Assembly: GCA_003130845.1 (NCBI GenBank)
Contig: QEXW01000058.1
Location: 1 to 32,716 of the forward strand
Length of the DNA stretch: 32,716 nt
Direction of reading: 5' to 3'
DNA from: Anaerolineae bacterium
GTDB lineage: Bacteria > Chloroflexota > Anaerolineae > Anaerolineales > Villigracilaceae
Each line of letters starts with the position of its first letter. Position 1 is the first letter of the stretch. Below are positions 21,006 to 32,716 of the stretch, one piece after another. Below the pieces are notes generated by a model that saw only the letters and a list, made by a program, of their open reading frames with translations, was not told the DNA's origin and did no database searches. The translations under genes were made by a program, and so were the position numbers.

Positions 21006-21099
21006 GGGAGCGCATAAGTCCCGGTGGGCTTCACGGTCTTCAAAACCGTTGTTGGGGCGCGTTGCGTTCCAGGGTGGGTTCGACTCCCATGCGCTCCCG
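21006..21099 (+). tRNA. selC: tRNA-Sec (anticodon TCA)
   Basis: A 94-base selenocysteine tRNA. The 8-bp acceptor stem is GGGAGCGC (21006-21013) with GCGCTCCC (21091-21098), then discriminator G. The D arm has the Sec-type 6-bp stem AAGTCC/GGGCTT with a 4-base loop. The anticodon arm is ACGGT-CTTCAAA-ACCGT with TCA at 21040-21042. A long variable arm follows (about 21050-21073), and the T arm is GTGGG-TTCGACT-CCCAT. This 8+5 geometry is that of bacterial tRNA-Sec. CCA is not encoded. The gene shows that the organism decodes UGA as selenocysteine; selA, selB and selD are not in this window. Confidence 0.95.
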
Positions 21100-21158
21100 C
21101 TGAATGGTGTTTTGGGTTGTTCTCTGTTTATCGAAGATTATTTTTTTGGATGCCTCCC

Positions 21159-24507: not shown

Positions 24508-24927
24508 ATGACCGAGATAAAACCTTTGCATTGGCAGCCCAAAGCGGGGATTGGCTACACCGTTGCTCGCCGCGCCGATGGCGGGATGAACCTGACCTTT
24601 ACCGACCTCTCTGAAGCAACCCTGGCCGACTGGCGGGAATTTGCTTATGAGCACTTGCTTGGCTCTGACCGCTTGACGCGTAACTTGTATGATTTGCGCG
24701 CCGTGTCTGAAATTCCTGAACGGGCCATCAAGCTGGCCATGGAGGTAAACAATGACCCAGCCACCCGCAATTTACGCGTTGCGGTGGTGGTTGTGGATGA
24801 AGCCGCGCGCCAAGCAATTCTTAAGGTGGCGGCTGGGGCGGTGGGTAGCGGCGCGGTCATTCGCGTCTTTACCAATCTAGCCGAAGCCGAAGCTTGGTTG
24901 ATGAAACCGATGGAGCAGATGGCGTGA
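24508..24927 (+). CDS. STAS/SpoIIAA-like protein
   Basis: A 139-residue soluble protein of unknown function. The second half has a beta strand (LRVAVVVV), a helix (EAARQAILKVAAGAVG) and the ending VFTNLAEAEAWL, the same kind of F-x-x-x-x-EA-x-WL close as in the protein encoded at 2176 and in SpoIIAA-like domains. TAGGTGA lies before the ATG. Its stop overlaps the folP start codon by the GTGA arrangement, so the two are coupled, although no functional link is known. Confidence 0.65.
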   Translation: MTEIKPLHWQPKAGIGYTVARRADGGMNLTFTDLSEATLADWREFAYEHLLGSDRLTRNLYDLRAVSEIPERAIKLAMEVNNDPATRNLRVAVVVVDEAARQAILKVAAGAVGSGAVIRVFTNLAEAEAWLMKPMEQMA

Positions 24928-25805
24928 AACCGCTTCGAGTCGGTTCAAAGGTTTTTGATTGGGGCACCCGCACGTTTGTTATGGGGATTTTAAATATCAC
25001 TCCCGATTCGTTTTCGGGGGATGGTTTGCTCTCGCGTCAGGAAGTGGTGGACGCTGCCATTGACCAGGCGCAGCGCTTTTTGCAAGCCGGCTGCGATATT
25101 CTGGATGTAGGCGGTGAATCAACCCGCCCTGGCGCGCAGACCATAACAGCTGAAGAAGAACTCCAGCGCGTTTTGCCGGTCATTGAGGCCCTGGTACGTG
25201 CTTTCCCTGAAGCGGTGATTTCCATAGATACTTATAAAGCGGCGGTTGCCCAGGCGGCTTTGCAATCTGGGGCGCACATCATCAATGACGTTTGGGGTTT
25301 ACGCGCCGATGCGCACATGCCGCTGGTGGCTGCCCAGCAGGGGGCGCCGGTGATTCTTATGCACAATCGCAGCAAGCCGGCCAATGCCCAGGTTTTACAA
25401 CAACTTGGCGGACGCTATGTGGGCGTGGAGTATGAAGACCTGCTCGAAGATGTCAAGCGCGAACTGATGGAATCGGTCAACCTTGCGCGCCAGGCCGGTA
25501 TTCCAGACGAAAACATTCTCCTCGATCCAGGCATTGGCTTTGGTAAGACGGTAGAGCAAAATCTCGAACTGCTCAACCGGCTCGATGAAATTCGCGCCCT
25601 GGGATTTCCGGTGCTATTAGGTCCTTCGCGTAAATCGTTTATTGGCTACACTTTGAACTTGCCCCCTGACCAGCGCTTGGAAGGCACAGCCGCCGCCGTT
25701 TCGGTGGGAATTGTGCGTGGCGCCGATATTGTGCGGGTTCATGATGTCGAATTCATGGTGCGTGTGGCGCGTATGACCGATGCGATAACCCGTCCCCAAG
25801 TTTGA
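24924..25805 (+). CDS. folP: Dihydropteroate synthase
   Basis: A 293-residue TIM-barrel enzyme that joins p-aminobenzoate to dihydropterin pyrophosphate in folate synthesis. All signature segments are present: MGILNITPDSFS, DVGGESTRPGA, SIDTYKA, IINDVWG, LDPGIGFGKT and GPSRKSFIG. A GTG start at 24924 is chosen: it overlaps the previous stop (GTGA), has GGAG seven bases upstream, and gives the usual short N-terminus; an upstream TTG at 24894 is less likely. Folate is also the carrier of one-carbon units from glycine cleavage, but the gene is not in the gcv unit. Confidence 0.95.
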   Translation: MKPLRVGSKVFDWGTRTFVMGILNITPDSFSGDGLLSRQEVVDAAIDQAQRFLQAGCDILDVGGESTRPGAQTITAEEELQRVLPVIEALVRAFPEAVISIDTYKAAVAQAALQSGAHIINDVWGLRADAHMPLVAAQQGAPVILMHNRSKPANAQVLQQLGGRYVGVEYEDLLEDVKRELMESVNLARQAGIPDENILLDPGIGFGKTVEQNLELLNRLDEIRALGFPVLLGPSRKSFIGYTLNLPPDQRLEGTAAAVSVGIVRGADIVRVHDVEFMVRVARMTDAITRPQV

Positions 25806-25817
25806 GTAACGACTGAT

Positions 25818-27107
25818 ATGACCGATTACGATAATCAACTCTTGCGACAGGCCATTATTCATGCCAAAGCCGGTGAGTATGAGGCTGCGCGTCGGTACCT
25901 CGCGCGCGCACTCGACTTGGCAGATGACCGTGAAACACGGGTTTGGGCGAATTATTGGATGAGCAAAGTGGTCAATGACCCACAAGAAAAACGCGAGTAC
26001 TTGGAAGAGACGCTGGCCTACGAGCCAACCCACCCTGAAGCCCGCCGTGAATTGGCGATTTTGGATGGCAAGCTTAAACCCGAAGACCTGGTTAACCCAG
26101 ATGCGTTGCCGACTGCCACTGCTGAAGCGCAAACTGCCCAGGCTGACCGTTTTACTTGCCCCAAATGTGGCGGACGGATGGTCTATGCCCCAGATGGGCG
26201 TTCGCTCTATTGTGAGTATTGTACGCGCAATCAAACATTGTCCGCTGCACCACTGCAGCAAGAGCAGGATTTTATTCTTAAAATGGCTACGGCGCAGGGG
26301 CATCGAACCGCGCTCGCGGTCAAGACCTTAACCTGTCAGGGTTGTGGAGCGCAATTTGTCCTGCCTCCGCAACAAATGACCGGTGAATGTGCTTATTGTG
26401 GTTCCAACCATATCATCCGCGGCGATGGGCAGCTGTTGCAGCCCGACTCGATTCTGCCCATGCGGCTGACTCAGTCTCAGGCGGTGCAAACCTTGGTGAA
26501 TTGGGTGGAACAGCAAGGCATTCAGCCGCAGCGCAAGGTCCAGGTTCCACGCGGCATGTACTTGCCCATGTGGACGTTCGACATCATTGGTGTCATTCCC
26601 TGGAGTGGGTATATCGTTCGCAGCAAGTACAACTCGTCTGAGTGGGAAGAGCGTGAATATGTGCAAGGGGAAAAGCAGATTTACTATGATGACATCCTCG
26701 TGCCAGGCGCGCCCAAGTTGGCCGATTTGTTGCCAATGATTGCTTCTGCTTTTGAGATTCAGTCGGCTGTTCCCTATGATGCGCGCTATTTAGCAGGTTG
26801 GCCGGCTGAGTTGCCCCAGATGAGCCTGGCTCAGGCCTCGCTGGAAGCCCGTCAACAGGCCGCCTATCGTGCGCGTCAGTTCATTCAGCGTGATTTCGGT
26901 AGCCAGCATATTGTCAATTTTTCTTATAGCACGGCCAGGGTCTCGGTGGCAACCTTCAAATTGGTGTTGGTTCCACTCTGGCTGACCATTTTACCGGCAG
27001 AAGGAAGCGAATATCGCGTTTTAATAGATGGGGTGAAAGGCACACTGTATTGCGAATTGCCGCCGCGCGGCTGGATGGGATGGTTAAAACAACTCCTGGG
27101 AACCTAA
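25818..27107 (+). CDS. TPR-like/double zinc-ribbon protein of unknown function
   Basis: A 429-residue protein. Residues 1-90 are helical with TPR-like repeats (AIIHAKAGEYEAARRYLARAL). Two four-cysteine zinc ribbons follow: C114, C117, C132, C135 and C173, C176, C191, C194. The rest, about 200-429, is a mixed domain with PMWTFDIIGVIPWSGYI and YDDILVPGAPKL, the kind of C-terminal domain seen in other zinc-ribbon proteins of unknown role. No enzyme motif and no definite membrane helix. It begins 12 bases after folP and is followed after two bases by the membrane protein gene. Confidence 0.7.
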   Translation: MTDYDNQLLRQAIIHAKAGEYEAARRYLARALDLADDRETRVWANYWMSKVVNDPQEKREYLEETLAYEPTHPEARRELAILDGKLKPEDLVNPDALPTATAEAQTAQADRFTCPKCGGRMVYAPDGRSLYCEYCTRNQTLSAAPLQQEQDFILKMATAQGHRTALAVKTLTCQGCGAQFVLPPQQMTGECAYCGSNHIIRGDGQLLQPDSILPMRLTQSQAVQTLVNWVEQQGIQPQRKVQVPRGMYLPMWTFDIIGVIPWSGYIVRSKYNSSEWEEREYVQGEKQIYYDDILVPGAPKLADLLPMIASAFEIQSAVPYDARYLAGWPAELPQMSLAQASLEARQQAAYRARQFIQRDFGSQHIVNFSYSTARVSVATFKLVLVPLWLTILPAEGSEYRVLIDGVKGTLYCELPPRGWMGWLKQLLGT

Positions 27108-27109
27108 TT

Positions 27110-28717
27110 ATGCTGATTGCGCTTGTCACCTGGATGTATGCAGGAGTGCTGTGCTACGTGTATGGCGCTCTTTTTTTTAGAAAATTACCGGTTTCACTCA
27201 CCACACTCGCGGGCTTGGTGGTTTTGACCGTTTTGGCTGAGTTTTTCAGTCTGGTGTTTCCCATTTCTGGGTGGCTTCATCTCCTGTTGATTGGTGGAGC
27301 AGTGGCTTTGGTAGCCACGCGGCGAATTGAATTTCCCAGTGTGCGCGAACTTTTCCCTGGAAATACCCGATTTCTAAACGCCGTGGCGTGGCTGGTGTTG
27401 TTGCTTGCCTTTCTCCTGGTCCTTGAAAACGCCACGCGCCGGCCTGCTAACCCCGATACGAATGGGTATCATGCGCAAGCCATCCGCTGGATTGAAACGT
27501 ATCCTGCTGTGCCAGGCCTGGGGAACTTGCATGGGCGGCTGGCGTTTAATTCGGCCTGGTTCGTGACCAATGCGCTCTTCGGTTTGGCTTTTTTAGGTCA
27601 AGGCTCGTTTCCGCTGGCTGCTGGGCTGTTGACCCTGATGGTGCTATCGTTCTTTTGGAAAGGACTGGTTGCATGGTTGGCAGGGCAGGTTTCGGCTGCC
27701 AATGGACTTCGCTTGCTGTTTGTGCCGCTGACGTTCTATCTGCTCGGTGGTGAATTATCCTCCCCCGGCACGGATTTGCCGGTCACGCTTCTGGCTTGGG
27801 TGATAGCTGTTTTATGGGTAGAGAGCCTGGAGCGTGACACCCCCTATCATCTACTGTTGATGACTTTGTTGGCTGCTTTCGCCGTTACCTTGAAACTCTC
27901 GGCCTTGCCGCTCTTGCTTTTTCCTCTATTTTCTGTTTTTTTGCAAAAACAGCGACTGTTTTCTACAGCTCTCATTTTCACCGTGGTGTTTGTGCCATTT
28001 GTGGCTCGCAATCTCATTTTGAGTGGGTATCTGCTCTACCCCTATCCGGCCTTGGATTGGTTTAATTTCGATTGGAAAATCCCCGCCGAACGAGCGGAAG
28101 AAGACCGGCGCGCAGTGATTGTGTATGGGCGGTGGGTGGGACCGGGGGAGTTTTCAGCGCCTTTGTCGGAGTGGTTTCCGCATTGGCTTGGGCGTCAGAC
28201 CTTCAATCGCAAGGTTTTGTTCTGGGGGGCTTTGCTCACGCCGCTGGCGGCTGTGTTCTATCGCTTGCGCCCTCCCCAACTCTGGCTAGGCTGGTTGGCT
28301 GGCTATCTCGGGTTGTGTTTTTGGTTTTTTAACGCGCCGGATTTTCGTTTTGGATATGGGTTTTTATTGGCGACTCTCTTGTTGGCGCTTACTCCCCTTT
28401 TGCTCTCTGCAATAACGCGTTTCTCTGTTTGCTACCGCTTCGGTGCCGCTTGGTTGGGTGGATTGCTTGGCTTGTATCTGGCCTTTATGCTAATTCGCTC
28501 TTTTGAGCCGCACACCTTTGCCAAGCGTTTGGTCTGGCCGATAGGGTATGATGATGTTCCGGTGCAAGAATGCGCTCTAGCAAATGCTCCTGCCTTTTGT
28601 GCGGTGGAATATGGTTTTTGTGGGTATCATGAACTGCCGTGTGTCCCATCCCCTCGTTATTGGGTGGAGCAGCGCGGCGCTGATTTGCGAGATGGATTCC
28701 GTTCTCTCCCCCGATGA
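27110..28717 (+). CDS. Polytopic membrane protein, GT-C/LIC_10190-like
   Basis: A 535-residue integral membrane protein with about 11-13 hydrophobic segments. The loop after the third or fourth helix reads NPDTNGYHAQAIRWIE, then VPGLGNLHGRLAFNS. This matches my memory of the LIC_10190-type membrane family and is like the acidic first loop of GT-C glycosyltransferases, so transfer of a sugar from a lipid carrier is possible. The C-terminal part is soluble with several Cys (VQECALANAPAFC, YGFCGYHELPC), suggesting disulfides outside the membrane. ATG at 27110 stands two bases after the previous stop; an overlapping ATG at 27080 is an alternative. Confidence 0.65.
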   Translation: MLIALVTWMYAGVLCYVYGALFFRKLPVSLTTLAGLVVLTVLAEFFSLVFPISGWLHLLLIGGAVALVATRRIEFPSVRELFPGNTRFLNAVAWLVLLLAFLLVLENATRRPANPDTNGYHAQAIRWIETYPAVPGLGNLHGRLAFNSAWFVTNALFGLAFLGQGSFPLAAGLLTLMVLSFFWKGLVAWLAGQVSAANGLRLLFVPLTFYLLGGELSSPGTDLPVTLLAWVIAVLWVESLERDTPYHLLLMTLLAAFAVTLKLSALPLLLFPLFSVFLQKQRLFSTALIFTVVFVPFVARNLILSGYLLYPYPALDWFNFDWKIPAERAEEDRRAVIVYGRWVGPGEFSAPLSEWFPHWLGRQTFNRKVLFWGALLTPLAAVFYRLRPPQLWLGWLAGYLGLCFWFFNAPDFRFGYGFLLATLLLALTPLLLSAITRFSVCYRFGAAWLGGLLGLYLAFMLIRSFEPHTFAKRLVWPIGYDDVPVQECALANAPAFCAVEYGFCGYHELPCVPSPRYWVEQRGADLRDGFRSLPR

Positions 28718-28729
28718 TAAAATACGTCC

Positions 28730-31519
28730 ATGTCGTCTCTTTCTGTTCTGCGCAGGCGCCGTGAACGGCGTATTGAGCAGCGTCAGCGTGCCGGTGAACG
28801 CCTAAATGGCAGTCTGATTGGCTTGGGACTGCTTTTCTTTGCCCTGCTCGGTTTGACCATTTTGGGGTTGGCGCTGGCCTACTCATTTTTGACGGCTGAT
28901 TTGCCTTCTCCAGAAACCATCCCGGCTTTGTTAGAGCCGCCCTATGGCTCTCTGTTGCAACCAACCCGTATTTATGACCGCACAGGCACTCATTTGCTGG
29001 CGGTACTCGCACCCCAAGATGCGCCTCGGCAGTATCTGCCTTTGGTGGCAGATGCTTCTGCCGAAGCAACGTTACCTGAGACTTTAGCCCGTGCGACAGT
29101 AGCGTTGATTGACCCGGGCTTTTGGCTTCATCCTGGCTATACGTTGGATGGCCTGACCGATCCATCCGACCATCCTACCATCCCACAGAAACTGATTGCG
29201 GAACTGGTTTTGTGGCAAGAACCGCCCAGTTTGCGGCGCGCGTTGCGCGAGCGAATCTTGGCTGCCCAGCTGGTGAGACGCTATGGACGCCCAAAAGTTT
29301 TAGAATGGTATCTGAACTCTGCCAACTATGGCCGTTTGGCGTATGGGGCTGATGCCGCGGCTCGCTTGTATTTTGATAAACCGGCCTCTGCGCTCAGCCT
29401 GGCCGAATCGGTTCTCTTGGCGTCGGTGAACCAACTCCCGGCCATCAACCCGCTCGATGCGCCACAAGCCGCCTTGCAGCGACAGCAGGAAGCGTTGAAG
29501 AATTTGCAAGCGACGGGTGCTTTCTCGCCTGAAGAAGTGGAGATGGCGCGGGCCGAAACGTTGCTTTTTGCCCCTGCGGTTTCCTTTCCCAGCCCCGCAC
29601 CGGCCTTTGTGGCCCTGGCGCTTTCGCAACTCGAACGTCAGTTTGACCGCGCCCGGGTGGAGCGGGGTGGCATGGTTGTGTTGACCACGCTTGATTACGA
29701 AATCCAAGCGCGCGCCGCGTGCCTTGTTCGTGTTCAGTTGGCGCGCTTGGCCGAAGTGGAGCCGCCTGCCTGCGAGGGCGCAGCGTTTTTGCCGCCCCTG
29801 CCGCCTGATTCTGTCAATCCAGAAGTCTCAGCCTCTGTTGCCATTTTGGATCCACGCTCTGGGCAGGTCTTGGCCTTGGTGGGGGATACTCGCGCTGGAC
29901 AGGAGTTAGCCTTTCTGCCGCCCTATCGTCCGGGCAGTTTGTTTACGCCTTTTGTCTATTTGGCCGGCTTTACGCGTGGACTTTCTCCTGCCAGTCTTAC
30001 CTGGGATCTTCCACCCCCGGGAACTTCACCGGAGATTGCCAAGCAATATCGTGGTCCGGTGCGGTTGCGGGTTGCGATGTCGAATGATTTGCCTGGTCCT
30101 ACCCGCCAGATGTTCGATGCGATGGGCGCGGCGCTGATTGGCCAAACGTTACGTGCCTTTGGGTTAGATATTACTCCTACCTCGTTGGATGATTTGCTTG
30201 CCTTGGAAAATCGTTATACCGTTTTGGATGTGGCGCGGGTATATGGCATTTTTGCTGCGCAAGGCACTCTGCTTGGGCAGCAAACCTCGCCTGGCGTATT
30301 AGGCGAATGGGCATTGCTTTCTATTCGTGGGGCGGATGGGCGTGATTATGTGCAATGGGATGCGCCTCGTTCGGAACCGGTGCTCAGTCCAGCCCTGGCA
30401 TATCTGGTGACCGACGTTTTGCGCGATGCAACCGTGCGCCAAGACCCCAGCCTGTTTGAGATAGGTCGGCCTGTGGCAGTTAAGACCGCACAAGGGTCGC
30501 AGCCGGGGGAATTTTGGGCGGTTGGCTACACTCCCCAACGGGTTGTTGTCTTATGGATGGGCGGTGAACGCCTTTCAGAGCGTCCGGTTTCCGGTTTATG
30601 GTTGGCGCTTATGCAAGCGGCCAGCCGCAATGCACCGGCTGAAGATTGGCCGCGCCCGGCGGGCATTGTGCGCCTGAGAGTGTGTGACCCCTCGGGCTTG
30701 CTTCCCACCGAAGCCTGTCCTAACCAGGTGATGGAGACCTTTATTGATGGCTATCAACCCATGCAGCCGGATTCGCTTTACCGCGCTTATGCTATCAACC
30801 GTGAAACTGGCCTGTTAGCCACCGTTTTTACCCCCCCGGCCTTGATAGAAAATCGTGTCTACTTGCAAGTTCCTGCTCAAGCGCAGGAATGGGCGGCTGC
30901 GGTTGGGATAGAATCGCCGCCAGACACCTATGATACCATTCGCCCACCGCGCGTTTCACCTTCAGCGAACATCGTGGCCCCGGCGCTGTTCGAGCAACAG
31001 AAAGGCACAATCTCAATCCTTGGAACAGCTGCAGGGCAAGATTTTGTTTCTTATCGTTTGCTCTATGGCCAAGGCTTGAACCCTTCCGGTTGGGTATTGA
31101 TTGCCGAGGGTAATCAGCCGGTCGAGGCAGCAACGCTTGCCGAGTGGGATACCACCGGCTTAAATGGCTTGTATGTTTTACAACTGATTGTCCTTCGGAC
31201 AGAAAATCGCATCGAAACCGCCTCCACGCTTGTGATGATAGATAACGAGCCGCCGCACATCGCTTTAGACTTCCCAAAAAATGACACAAATTTGGTCCTG
31301 ACTGAGCAGCCACAGCTTGTTTTTCAGCCTCGTGTCAGTGACAATTTCCACCTTGCGCGGGTTGAAGTTTGGTTGGATGGTCGGCAGCTAGCTACGTTTG
31401 ATGCGCCTCCATTCACTGTGACCTGGAACGCACGGCGCGGCCAACACAACCTACGCGTTTTGGCGCGCGACCGGTTGGGGCATGAGACGACCTTGGATGT
31501 AACTTTTTCGGTCGAGTAA
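28730..31519 (+). CDS. Class A penicillin-binding protein homologue with degenerate catalytic motifs
   Basis: A 929-residue protein with the layout of a bifunctional PBP: basic N-terminus, one membrane helix (about 28-52), a GT51-like domain (about 75-245), a transpeptidase-like domain (about 365-640) and C-terminal Ig-like domains (about 720-929). Fold marks remain (EWYLNSANYGRLAYGADAAARLYF; ASVAILDPRSGQVLALVG), but active sites are changed. The GT51 EDxxF motif reads IDPGF (127-131), losing the catalytic Glu, and GGSTITQQ is PTIPQK. The transpeptidase SxxK is SLFT (403-406), without Lys; SxN is replaced by SND (451-453), and KTG is KTA (585-587). It is full length and not broken, so probably a maintained non-enzymatic cell-wall protein. 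GATGATAAAATAC lies just upstream. Confidence 0.85.
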   Translation: MSSLSVLRRRRERRIEQRQRAGERLNGSLIGLGLLFFALLGLTILGLALAYSFLTADLPSPETIPALLEPPYGSLLQPTRIYDRTGTHLLAVLAPQDAPRQYLPLVADASAEATLPETLARATVALIDPGFWLHPGYTLDGLTDPSDHPTIPQKLIAELVLWQEPPSLRRALRERILAAQLVRRYGRPKVLEWYLNSANYGRLAYGADAAARLYFDKPASALSLAESVLLASVNQLPAINPLDAPQAALQRQQEALKNLQATGAFSPEEVEMARAETLLFAPAVSFPSPAPAFVALALSQLERQFDRARVERGGMVVLTTLDYEIQARAACLVRVQLARLAEVEPPACEGAAFLPPLPPDSVNPEVSASVAILDPRSGQVLALVGDTRAGQELAFLPPYRPGSLFTPFVYLAGFTRGLSPASLTWDLPPPGTSPEIAKQYRGPVRLRVAMSNDLPGPTRQMFDAMGAALIGQTLRAFGLDITPTSLDDLLALENRYTVLDVARVYGIFAAQGTLLGQQTSPGVLGEWALLSIRGADGRDYVQWDAPRSEPVLSPALAYLVTDVLRDATVRQDPSLFEIGRPVAVKTAQGSQPGEFWAVGYTPQRVVVLWMGGERLSERPVSGLWLALMQAASRNAPAEDWPRPAGIVRLRVCDPSGLLPTEACPNQVMETFIDGYQPMQPDSLYRAYAINRETGLLATVFTPPALIENRVYLQVPAQAQEWAAAVGIESPPDTYDTIRPPRVSPSANIVAPALFEQQKGTISILGTAAGQDFVSYRLLYGQGLNPSGWVLIAEGNQPVEAATLAEWDTTGLNGLYVLQLIVLRTENRIETASTLVMIDNEPPHIALDFPKNDTNLVLTEQPQLVFQPRVSDNFHLARVEVWLDGRQLATFDAPPFTVTWNARRGQHNLRVLARDRLGHETTLDVTFSVE

Positions 31520-31703: not shown

Positions 31704-32716
31704 ATGCCCATTTCTGCTCTGATTCAGGCCCTGATTATTTTCTTTGGCCTCCTGGCGTTGTTTTGCGTCTGGATGGGGGTCAGTTTCATTCGGGCCGGCA
31801 TGAAAATCAAGTTCTATCGTACGCGGCAGCAAAAAATTATCACTGGTTGGCGTTGGATTGGTGTTGCGGTGTTGATGGGCAGCCTTTCGTTTGCGGGAGC
31901 GCGTTTTGGTCAGACGTTCGCTACGCAATGGCTCTTTCCGCCGACCGCGACCGTGCTTCCAACGTTAACGCTGACGCGCACGTTCACTGCCACCTTGCGG
32001 CCTTCGACGACCCCTCGTCCAACTTTAACCGAATCTCTCTCGACTACCCCTGACTTACCCCTTGTCACTCTGACGGTTGTCTCTTCGCCTACCCTTATCC
32101 GTACCCTCACCAAGACGCCTCTTCCCTCCCTGACACCCAGTCTAACTGCCACGCGAGTTACGCCACCCACCCCTACGCCTTCTCGCACGTTTACCCCCTC
32201 GAAGACTGCGCGTCCCAGCCTGACCCCTTCCCCTCGTGCTACGCGCGCCCCTTCCAATACACCTACCTTTACGCCAACCAACACCTTTACCCCCACGGCG
32301 ACCTTCACGCGCACCTCGACCCCAACGGCCACATTCACCTTCACCGCGACCGCCACACGCACCCCCACCGCCACCTGGACGCCTTCTAACACGCCGACGG
32401 CGACCTTCACGCGCACCTTTACTCCAACATCTACCCACACCTTCACGCCCACCGCCACCTGGACACCATCCAGCACGCCGACCGCGACCTTTACGCGCAC
32501 ACCTACTGCCACCTGGACACCTTCTAGCACGCCCACGGCGACCTTTACGCGCACACCTACTGCCACCTGGACACCTTCTAGCACGCCCACGGCGACCTTT
32601 ACGCGCACCTCGACCCCAACGGCCACGCACACCTTCACGCCCACCGCCACCTGGACGCCTTCCCAAACGCCCACGGCGACCTTCACGCGCACCGCGACCC
32701 CAACGGCCACCGCCAC
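31704..32716 (+). CDS. Membrane-anchored Thr/Pro-rich stalk protein (cut by window edge)
   Basis: An open frame of 337 codons running off the right edge. Two hydrophobic segments (about 5-28 and 52-72) flank a short basic loop ([12 protein letters not shown]). From about residue 80 the protein is almost only Thr, Pro, Ser, Ala and Arg, with units such as [18 protein letters not shown]. Such low-complexity stretches in Chloroflexota usually form extended, often glycosylated stalks that lift a domain away from the surface; the domain itself would be beyond the window. The opposite strand is also open for about 800 bases here (31910-32716), a by-product of the repeats. No clear ribosome binding site before the ATG. 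Confidence 0.7.
32487..32594 (+). repeat. Perfect 54-base tandem repeat within the stalk gene
   Basis: Two identical 54-base copies (32487-32540 and 32541-32594) encode the 18-residue unit [19 protein letters not shown] third copy starts at 32595 and diverges after about 15 bases, and older diverged copies extend back to about 32260 and forward to the window edge. Identity at the DNA level means recent duplication or active homogenisation. Confidence 0.9.

Follow-up and report, generated by a model that had tools for sequence, protein, structure and literature searches.

Bifunctional class A penicillin-binding proteins (PBPs) of the PBP1A family, for example those in PDB entries 3dwk, 5u2g and 3vma, combine a GT51 glycosyltransferase domain and a transpeptidase domain in one chain behind an N-terminal anchor. 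Here, we describe a gene whose product has the same domain order, fold and anchor, but in which both active sites appear to be disabled. The gene is found at positions 28730..31519 (+) of a 32,716-nucleotide stretch of DNA (the whole stretch is referred to as the window) from an Anaerolineae bacterium of the order Anaerolineales, family Villigracilaceae (assembly GCA_003130845.1, contig QEXW01000058.1).

Functions of PBPs that do not depend on catalysis have been described in other bacteria. PBP2B of Bacillus subtilis is a class B protein. Its catalytically dead form supports division and has a structural role (PMC5656894); this independence from catalysis resembles what we propose below, but PBP2B is naturally active and its dead form was engineered. 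For Clostridioides difficile PBP3, the role described is regulatory and independent of catalysis, and the protein is part of a complex that contains a class A PBP (PMC12154710); here the protein with that role is of class B and the regulated partner is the class A protein. In Escherichia coli, the conformation of PBP2 stimulates RodA (PMC6207328). Among the matches listed from open-licence papers there was no natural class A PBP with both domains dead and no PBP study in Anaerolineales, although one may exist in print; the sole paper matched on Anaerolineales in that list, PMC8510549, is unrelated.

The open reading frame is intact, starts with ATG, spans exactly 28730..31519 and encodes 929 residues. 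All features within it are on the same strand (+). Residues 1-58 (28730..28903) are rich in Arg and form a single long helix in the model (residues 4-55) with a hydrophobic stretch, and such a hydrophobic helix is probably inserted in the membrane. They are followed by a GT51-like domain at residues 115-262 (29072..29515), with a Pfam score of 82.2 bits for Transgly (PF00912, cut-off 27), and a transpeptidase-like domain at residues 366-645 (29825..30664), which is barely above the Pfam cut-off (PF00905, 23.0 against 22.1 bits). The post-transpeptidase module, residues 646-838 (30665..31243), contains Cys652 and Cys663 in VCDPSGLLPTEAC followed by a beta-sandwich, and the chain ends with an Ig-like domain (Big_7, 31.2 bits) at residues 839-929 (31244..31516). 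An AlphaFold2 model of the full protein, made from an alignment of 39 rows of relatives, has a mean predicted local distance difference test score (pLDDT) of 91.0 and a predicted template modelling score (pTM) of 0.73. The predicted fold is that of a bifunctional class A PBP, because the best PDB matches of the model in Foldseek are class A PBPs: 3dwk (penicillin-binding protein 2, which we take to be from Staphylococcus aureus; E 8e-29, TM-score 0.47 by query and 0.67-0.70 by target), 5u2g (Haemophilus influenzae PBP1A) and 3vma (E. coli PBP1b). Homology to proteins with a GT51 and a transpeptidase domain in a single chain is therefore seen both in sequence and in fold, together with the putative membrane anchor.

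The closest relatives with intact motifs are orthologues from the same class, for example L041 and L260. They share the same kind of N-terminus and the post-transpeptidase module, and L041 also has the Big_7 end. They branch beside the dead clades but differ from them by carrying all catalytic motifs, in 37 of 37 full-length rows. The Ig-like end and a weak match to BiPBP_C (22.0 bits, under the cut-off of 26.8) are reminiscent of PBP1C and other BiPBP_C proteins. However, the protein reaches only 152.8 of the 494.2 bits of the PBP1C equivalog TIGR02073, a cut-off that intact relatives also miss (417.0 for L041, 412.6). Similarly, it scores 198.6 of 508.75 bits for TIGR02074, and this cut-off is no test because intact relatives from the class fall below it too (480.6, 468.7). 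The C-terminal module could not be recognised as a known binding domain, since Foldseek returned only generic Ig/FnIII-like matches (best 3pdd, E 4.2e-12). In the 21 genomes searched for stand-alone copies of it, only weak matches to the sandwich part were found outside PBPs.

Motif columns were read from a MAFFT alignment with relatives and paralogues. Counts were taken from a 102-row alignment with 37 full-length intact orthologues, 9 outgroup rows, 48 dead rows from the order and 8 dead rows from elsewhere in the class. Every intact row (37 of 37) and every outgroup row (9 of 9) has the Glu of GT51 motif 1, the Ser and Lys of SxxK, the Ser and Asn of SxN and the K-x-G, while the SxxK Lys is found in none of the 48 and none of the 8 dead rows and the Glu in 3 of the 48. 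In the protein itself, the place of motif 1, LIDPGFWLHPGY (29105..29140), has Ile127 instead of the catalytic Glu; I127-D128 stands at the E-D position of active proteins, so that only Asp128 is kept. At the place of motif 2 (HPTIPQKLIAE, 29171..29203) the Lys is lost. DHPTIPQKLIAE stands at the position of GGSTITQQLVKN, and the GGS of GGSTITQQ is gone. All 37 intact rows carry the Lys of motif 2, whereas 28 of the 48 dead rows have Ser, Ala or Glu in its place. The distance from the Glu column to the Thr column of motif 2 is 24 residues here and has a median of 23 in the 48 dead rows (range 10-35), compared with 34 in the 37 intact orthologues (range 34-61). In the transpeptidase-like domain, SxxK reads S403-L-F-T406 (29936..29947), with the Ser retained and the Lys lost, the SxN column aligns with D453-L454-P455 (30086..30094), and the KTG column is K585-T-A587 (30482..30490). 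The last Ala is atypical, as 35 of the 48 dead rows from the order have K at 585 and 36 have G at 587.

The preliminary description, made from the DNA letters, had read most of this correctly: the intact frame of 929 residues, the missing Glu at 127-128, the altered GGSTITQQ loop and the SLFT at SxxK all agree with the alignment, and the retained domain folds agree with the predicted structure and its Foldseek matches. Its SxN assignment, SND (S451-N452-D453), was two residues off. KTA is right for this protein but is not the typical loss, and the Ig-like C-terminus is present but not universal. Among the best 80 of 249 relatives from a scan of GTDB species genomes (272 places matched), the match reaches residue 928-929 in 23, stops at 827-846 in 56 and at 873 in 1, i.e. 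the Big_7 end is optional and missing from many relatives.

Could the catalytic residues instead be present elsewhere? An independent alignment of the family profile to PDB chains with HMMER (chain u69512, 4oon) places the same columns opposite EDDNF, GSTITMQ, SSFKP, SRNM and KTGTT, so neither this alignment nor a hunt for newly uniform residues supports misplaced motifs. It might still be argued that one domain works through remapped residues, with Asp128 or Glu174 as a base, or Ser403 together with another general base. Of the 48 dead rows, 36 have Asp128, 21 have Glu174, 42 have Ser or Thr at 403 and 37 have Asp at 453, where 28 of 28 intact rows have Ser. However, none of these residues is invariant in the dead rows. 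Sixteen columns are at least 85% uniform in dead rows with a different commonest letter in intact rows; the charged or amide residues among them are R173, R416 and N452, and N452 is also found in 4 of 28 intact rows. In addition, the loop leading to motif 2 is shorter and the motif itself is lost. We consider remapping very improbable. With Ile127 for the catalytic Glu and SLFT, DLP and KTA for SxxK, SxN and KTG, the protein is, judging from its sequence, incapable of polymerising lipid II or cross-linking peptides by the known mechanisms.

The order was sampled by an even draw of 161 genomes, each labelled at least 90% complete, which were searched with the family alignment. Copies were typed by motif, and rows grouping with canonical paralogues were removed ahead of counting. 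The first typing gave, among the matches listed, 119 dead and 10 intact copies, 1 piece and 31 untyped genomes. These 31 were searched again with a divergent dead protein and the C-terminal alignment, which added 7 dead copies (six from one genus of family f9, one from f13) and 2 pieces. The final result for the draw is 126 dead copies, 10 intact copies, 4 untypable pieces and 21 genomes in which no orthologue was found. The pieces include a C-terminal end at a contig edge (G059), an N-terminal piece only (G042) and a C-terminal module (G125). In G125 (C1:1355368-1356219; L368, L392) the post-transpeptidase module ends a frame of 1046 residues whose earlier part is not PBP-like; by eye that part looks UvrA-like, from either an assembly join or a real fusion.

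Within the order, the typed state is uniform in each family: intact in f3, f4, f10, f11 and f15 (10 of 10) and dead in f1, f2, f5-f9 and f12-f14 (126 of 126). No genome with both a dead and an intact orthologue was found among those typed. Beyond the order, an even draw of 121 genomes of the class was searched and 37 matches, mostly the strongest, were chosen. These are 27 intact orthologues, one canonical paralogue (L296), 8 dead copies and a Lys-bearing piece without a GT domain but with an intact transpeptidase (L294), which was left out of the dead set. The dead copies are from f33 (3), f58 (1) and f46 (4), and f46 also has one intact copy. In the f33 and f58 copies the GT51 Glu is retained, while motif 2 and the transpeptidase Lys are lost. 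Across the class, dead copies were typed in 152 genomes, 145 in the first round and 7 in the renewed search, and the SxxK Lys is present in 0 of these 152. Both the Lys and the Glu are absent in all of the best 80 loci of the GTDB scan, which overlap in genomes with the 152 copies. Taxon labels of these 80 are nearly all Anaerolineales, Anaerolineae, Anaerolineaceae or Chloroflexi/Chloroflexota, with a few genera such as Brevefilum fermentans and Candidatus Desulfolinea. Two loci labelled Chloroflexus sp. and Arcobacter sp. (L080, L081) carry the dead gene of this order and are by appearance mislabelled metagenome bins.

The losses are old, common to most of the order and present beyond it. 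An error of assembly, frame or alignment could be suspected in a draft genome of 159 contigs. However, the same losses recur in the 80 loci and the 152 copies, and the PDB-chain alignment gives the same columns, so we regard such an artefact as refuted and its probability as negligible. The preliminary description had asked whether relatives share the losses, which they do, and had taken intact relatives as a possible sign of recent decay. Intact relatives were indeed found, in different families of the order or in different orders; recent decay does not account for the dead state, because the loss is common to most of the order and is found outside it.

Selection on the gene was estimated from dN/dS (Nei-Gojobori) for the 60 most similar of 609 dead pairs, several of which list one genome under two locus numbers. 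The ratio is 0.07-0.2 in all but two distinct pairs; the exceptions are a pair at 0.29 (dS 0.29, listed three times) and a near-identical pair at 0.54 (dS 0.02, listed twice). For the window gene and its nearest relative, dN is 0.22 and dS 1.90 (ratio 0.116), and for the intact paralogues of the same two genomes the values are 0.088 and 1.87 (0.047), with dS near saturation in both comparisons. Constraint on the dead gene is strong, though weaker than on the active paralogue.

Conservation differs between regions of the protein. Mean pairwise identity was calculated from 32 of the 48 dead and 28 of the 37 intact rows, with the more divergent rows omitted. It is lower in dead than in intact rows for the GT domain (0.507 and 0.628) and the transpeptidase domain (0.444 and 0.611), as well as for residues 716-745 (0.434 and 0.495) and the Ig-like end (0.364 and 0.379), and about equal for residues 746-838 (0.498 and 0.493). 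Residues 646-715 are the most tightly held by selection relative to intact relatives, because here identity is higher in the dead rows (0.610) than in the intact ones (0.538). This segment includes Cys652 and Cys663, a pair that all 48 dead rows and 32 of the 37 intact rows share. Another pair, Cys331 and Cys348, is found in 46 of the 48 dead rows from the order and in all 8 from the rest of the class, but in only 16 of the 37 intact orthologues. It can be guessed that these Cys form disulphides.

A decaying pseudogene, i.e. an enzyme no longer needed whose frame is merely unbroken so far, would fit the lower conservation of the catalytic domains, the 21 of 161 genomes in which no orthologue was found, and the motif places, which drift widely in f2, f9 and f12 and in part of the f13 rows. 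However, the typed copies are long open frames in ten families of the order and three outside it, and the stops in the listed matches are in alignments that extend beyond residue 840, where the short form naturally ends. The low dN/dS, the many invariant columns outside the active sites and the gain in conservation at residues 646-715 also argue against decay, which we consider highly unlikely. Conserved loss of catalytic residues with purifying selection elsewhere is the mark of a pseudoenzyme, and we are confident, from these sequence comparisons, that the protein is one.

Whether the dead state arose once or several times depends on the tree. In a quick tree of 66 rows with the motif columns kept, 22 intact rows lie on one side of a branch (Shimodaira-Hasegawa approximate likelihood-ratio test, 99), with the dead L046 weakly beside them. 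A quick tree of all 102 rows with the motif columns removed needs two state changes. A more careful tree of 60 of the 102 rows (LG+C20) needs three, and its starred branches force at least two. In this tree, the dead clade of the order (20 rows, 100/100) adjoins intact copies of the order (81/90), the dead f46 clade adjoins the intact f46 copy (83/99), and the f33 and f58 clade adjoins an intact f57 copy (95/100). A single origin, found in 4% of 200 bootstrap trees, is disfavoured by the careful tree, though a topology test described below does not reject it. Recurrent loss is likely, with three separate losses in the best tree, and long branches are in play. The preliminary description called the protein a paralogue; an intact class A PBP is indeed present in the same genome, but the sequence comparisons fit an orthologue of enzymes that remain active in other parts of the class better than a recent duplicate.

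The host genome is 3.77 Mb in 159 contigs, with a completeness label of 100. It has two GT51 places, the window gene and the intact class A PBP just mentioned (L062, contig C134), whose presence answers the earlier question about an active paralogue. There are six further transpeptidase-domain places and three SEDS places. A protein of 814 residues (G000, contig C148:72967-75408 (-); L308:328-2772 (-)) is a fusion of SEDS (PF01098) and a class-B-like transpeptidase. Its SxxK place reads DILL, and 36 of 41 searched genomes cover this column, with S-x-x-K in 0 of 36. The two parts mostly share one fused frame, but f4, f10, f5 and a few genomes of f1 encode them separately. The fused domain is a second putative pseudo-transpeptidase throughout the order.

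Upstream of the gene in the window, all on the + strand, are dihydropteroate synthase FolP (Pterin_bind, 24894..25805), a protein with a sub-threshold TPR match and CxxC pairs (25818..27107), and, directly upstream with a 12-base gap, a hydrophobic protein without a Pfam match (27086..28717) that is matched in few near relatives only. Of the 80 loci from the GTDB scan, 59 have at least 4 kb upstream; FolP is on the same strand in 33, the TPR-like protein is present in 26 and both are in 25. Elsewhere in the window, a frame start at 31704-32714 runs off the window end, is strongly repetitive (periods 18 to 108) and has no Pfam match. A tRNA-SeC called by ARAGORN at 21006-21100 (anticodon tca) and an M50 peptidase frame starting at 21024 overlap, so either the tRNA call or the start of this frame is wrong.

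We suggest that the protein is a fixed pseudoenzyme that probably serves as a membrane-anchored scaffold or regulator of active wall synthases, because of the conservation pattern and the precedents for non-catalytic PBP roles. The preliminary description had proposed a pseudoenzyme with a structural or regulatory role; the shared losses and the apparent absence of both chemistries agree with the former, while the role itself is inferred. The protein would derive from a class A PBP that is still intact elsewhere in the class and would have been retained as an extracytoplasmic scaffold anchored in the membrane. The GT51 and transpeptidase folds could then serve together as a rigid body that offers docking surfaces, and the post-transpeptidase module, which is strongly conserved, with its Cys-containing segment and Ig/FnIII-like sandwiches, would make the contact under selection. 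Through this contact the protein may bind and position an active synthase or tune it allosterically; the candidates are a SEDS complex and the genome's one intact class A PBP. Any single partner is less probable than the scaffold or regulator role in general. If loss was recurrent, the non-catalytic task was probably already present in the active ancestor and would have become the sole task where other synthases supply the chemistry.

Instead of regulating a synthase, the protein might be a passive membrane tether that binds peptidoglycan, lipid II or another envelope polymer through its old grooves or its C-terminal sandwiches. The retained fold and C-terminal module fit this, as do Tyr194 (35 of 48 dead rows), Asn196 (47 of 48) and the K585 and G587 counted above. 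However, the Lys residues of motif 2 (37 of 37 intact rows) and motif 3 (28 of 28), which in active enzymes probably face the phosphates of lipid II, do not rank among the most frequent letters of the dead rows. The former lipid II site is for that reason probably unused, and we find a passive tether doubtful.

Several observations weigh against a regulatory pseudoenzyme fixed by old and recurrent loss. The dead gene evolves faster than the intact paralogue (0.116 vs 0.047). No orthologue was found in 21 of the 161 genomes, 18 of them from f13, so some lineages manage without the protein. The GT51 lesion is less uniform than the transpeptidase lesion, because 9 of the 152 dead copies have a Glu there, four of them from f33 and f58, and 5 have a gap at this column. 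Approximately unbiased (AU) tests on the quick tree reject none of three groupings, namely of all dead rows (p 0.77), of the order (0.82) and of f46 (0.79); these tests rest on a tree whose free search had missed better trees. Neither FolP nor the TPR-like protein serves as a clue to function, since the neighbourhood is common to only part of the family and tells little about wall synthesis. The presence of MreB is equally uninformative, as it is found in 61 of 61 relatives, dead and intact alike.

Non-catalytic functions of PBPs are usually probed with engineered dead mutants, and natural loss offers an evolutionary answer to the same question. An old, widespread and perhaps recurrent loss of both chemistries within one orthologous group shows, through what is still conserved, which surfaces are important, chiefly residues 646-715. 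It also calls for caution, as GT51 and transpeptidase domain matches in genomes of this phylum are not equal to wall-synthesis activity or to beta-lactam targets. Finally, it can be speculated, though we think it rather unlikely, that an ancestral class A PBP duty without catalysis was so important that the activities were discarded independently in two or three lineages while the scaffold was kept, and dedicated pseudo-PBPs then became control subunits. If this were true, then together with the second dead transpeptidase fused to SEDS, pseudo-PBPs would control separate polymerases and cross-linkers.

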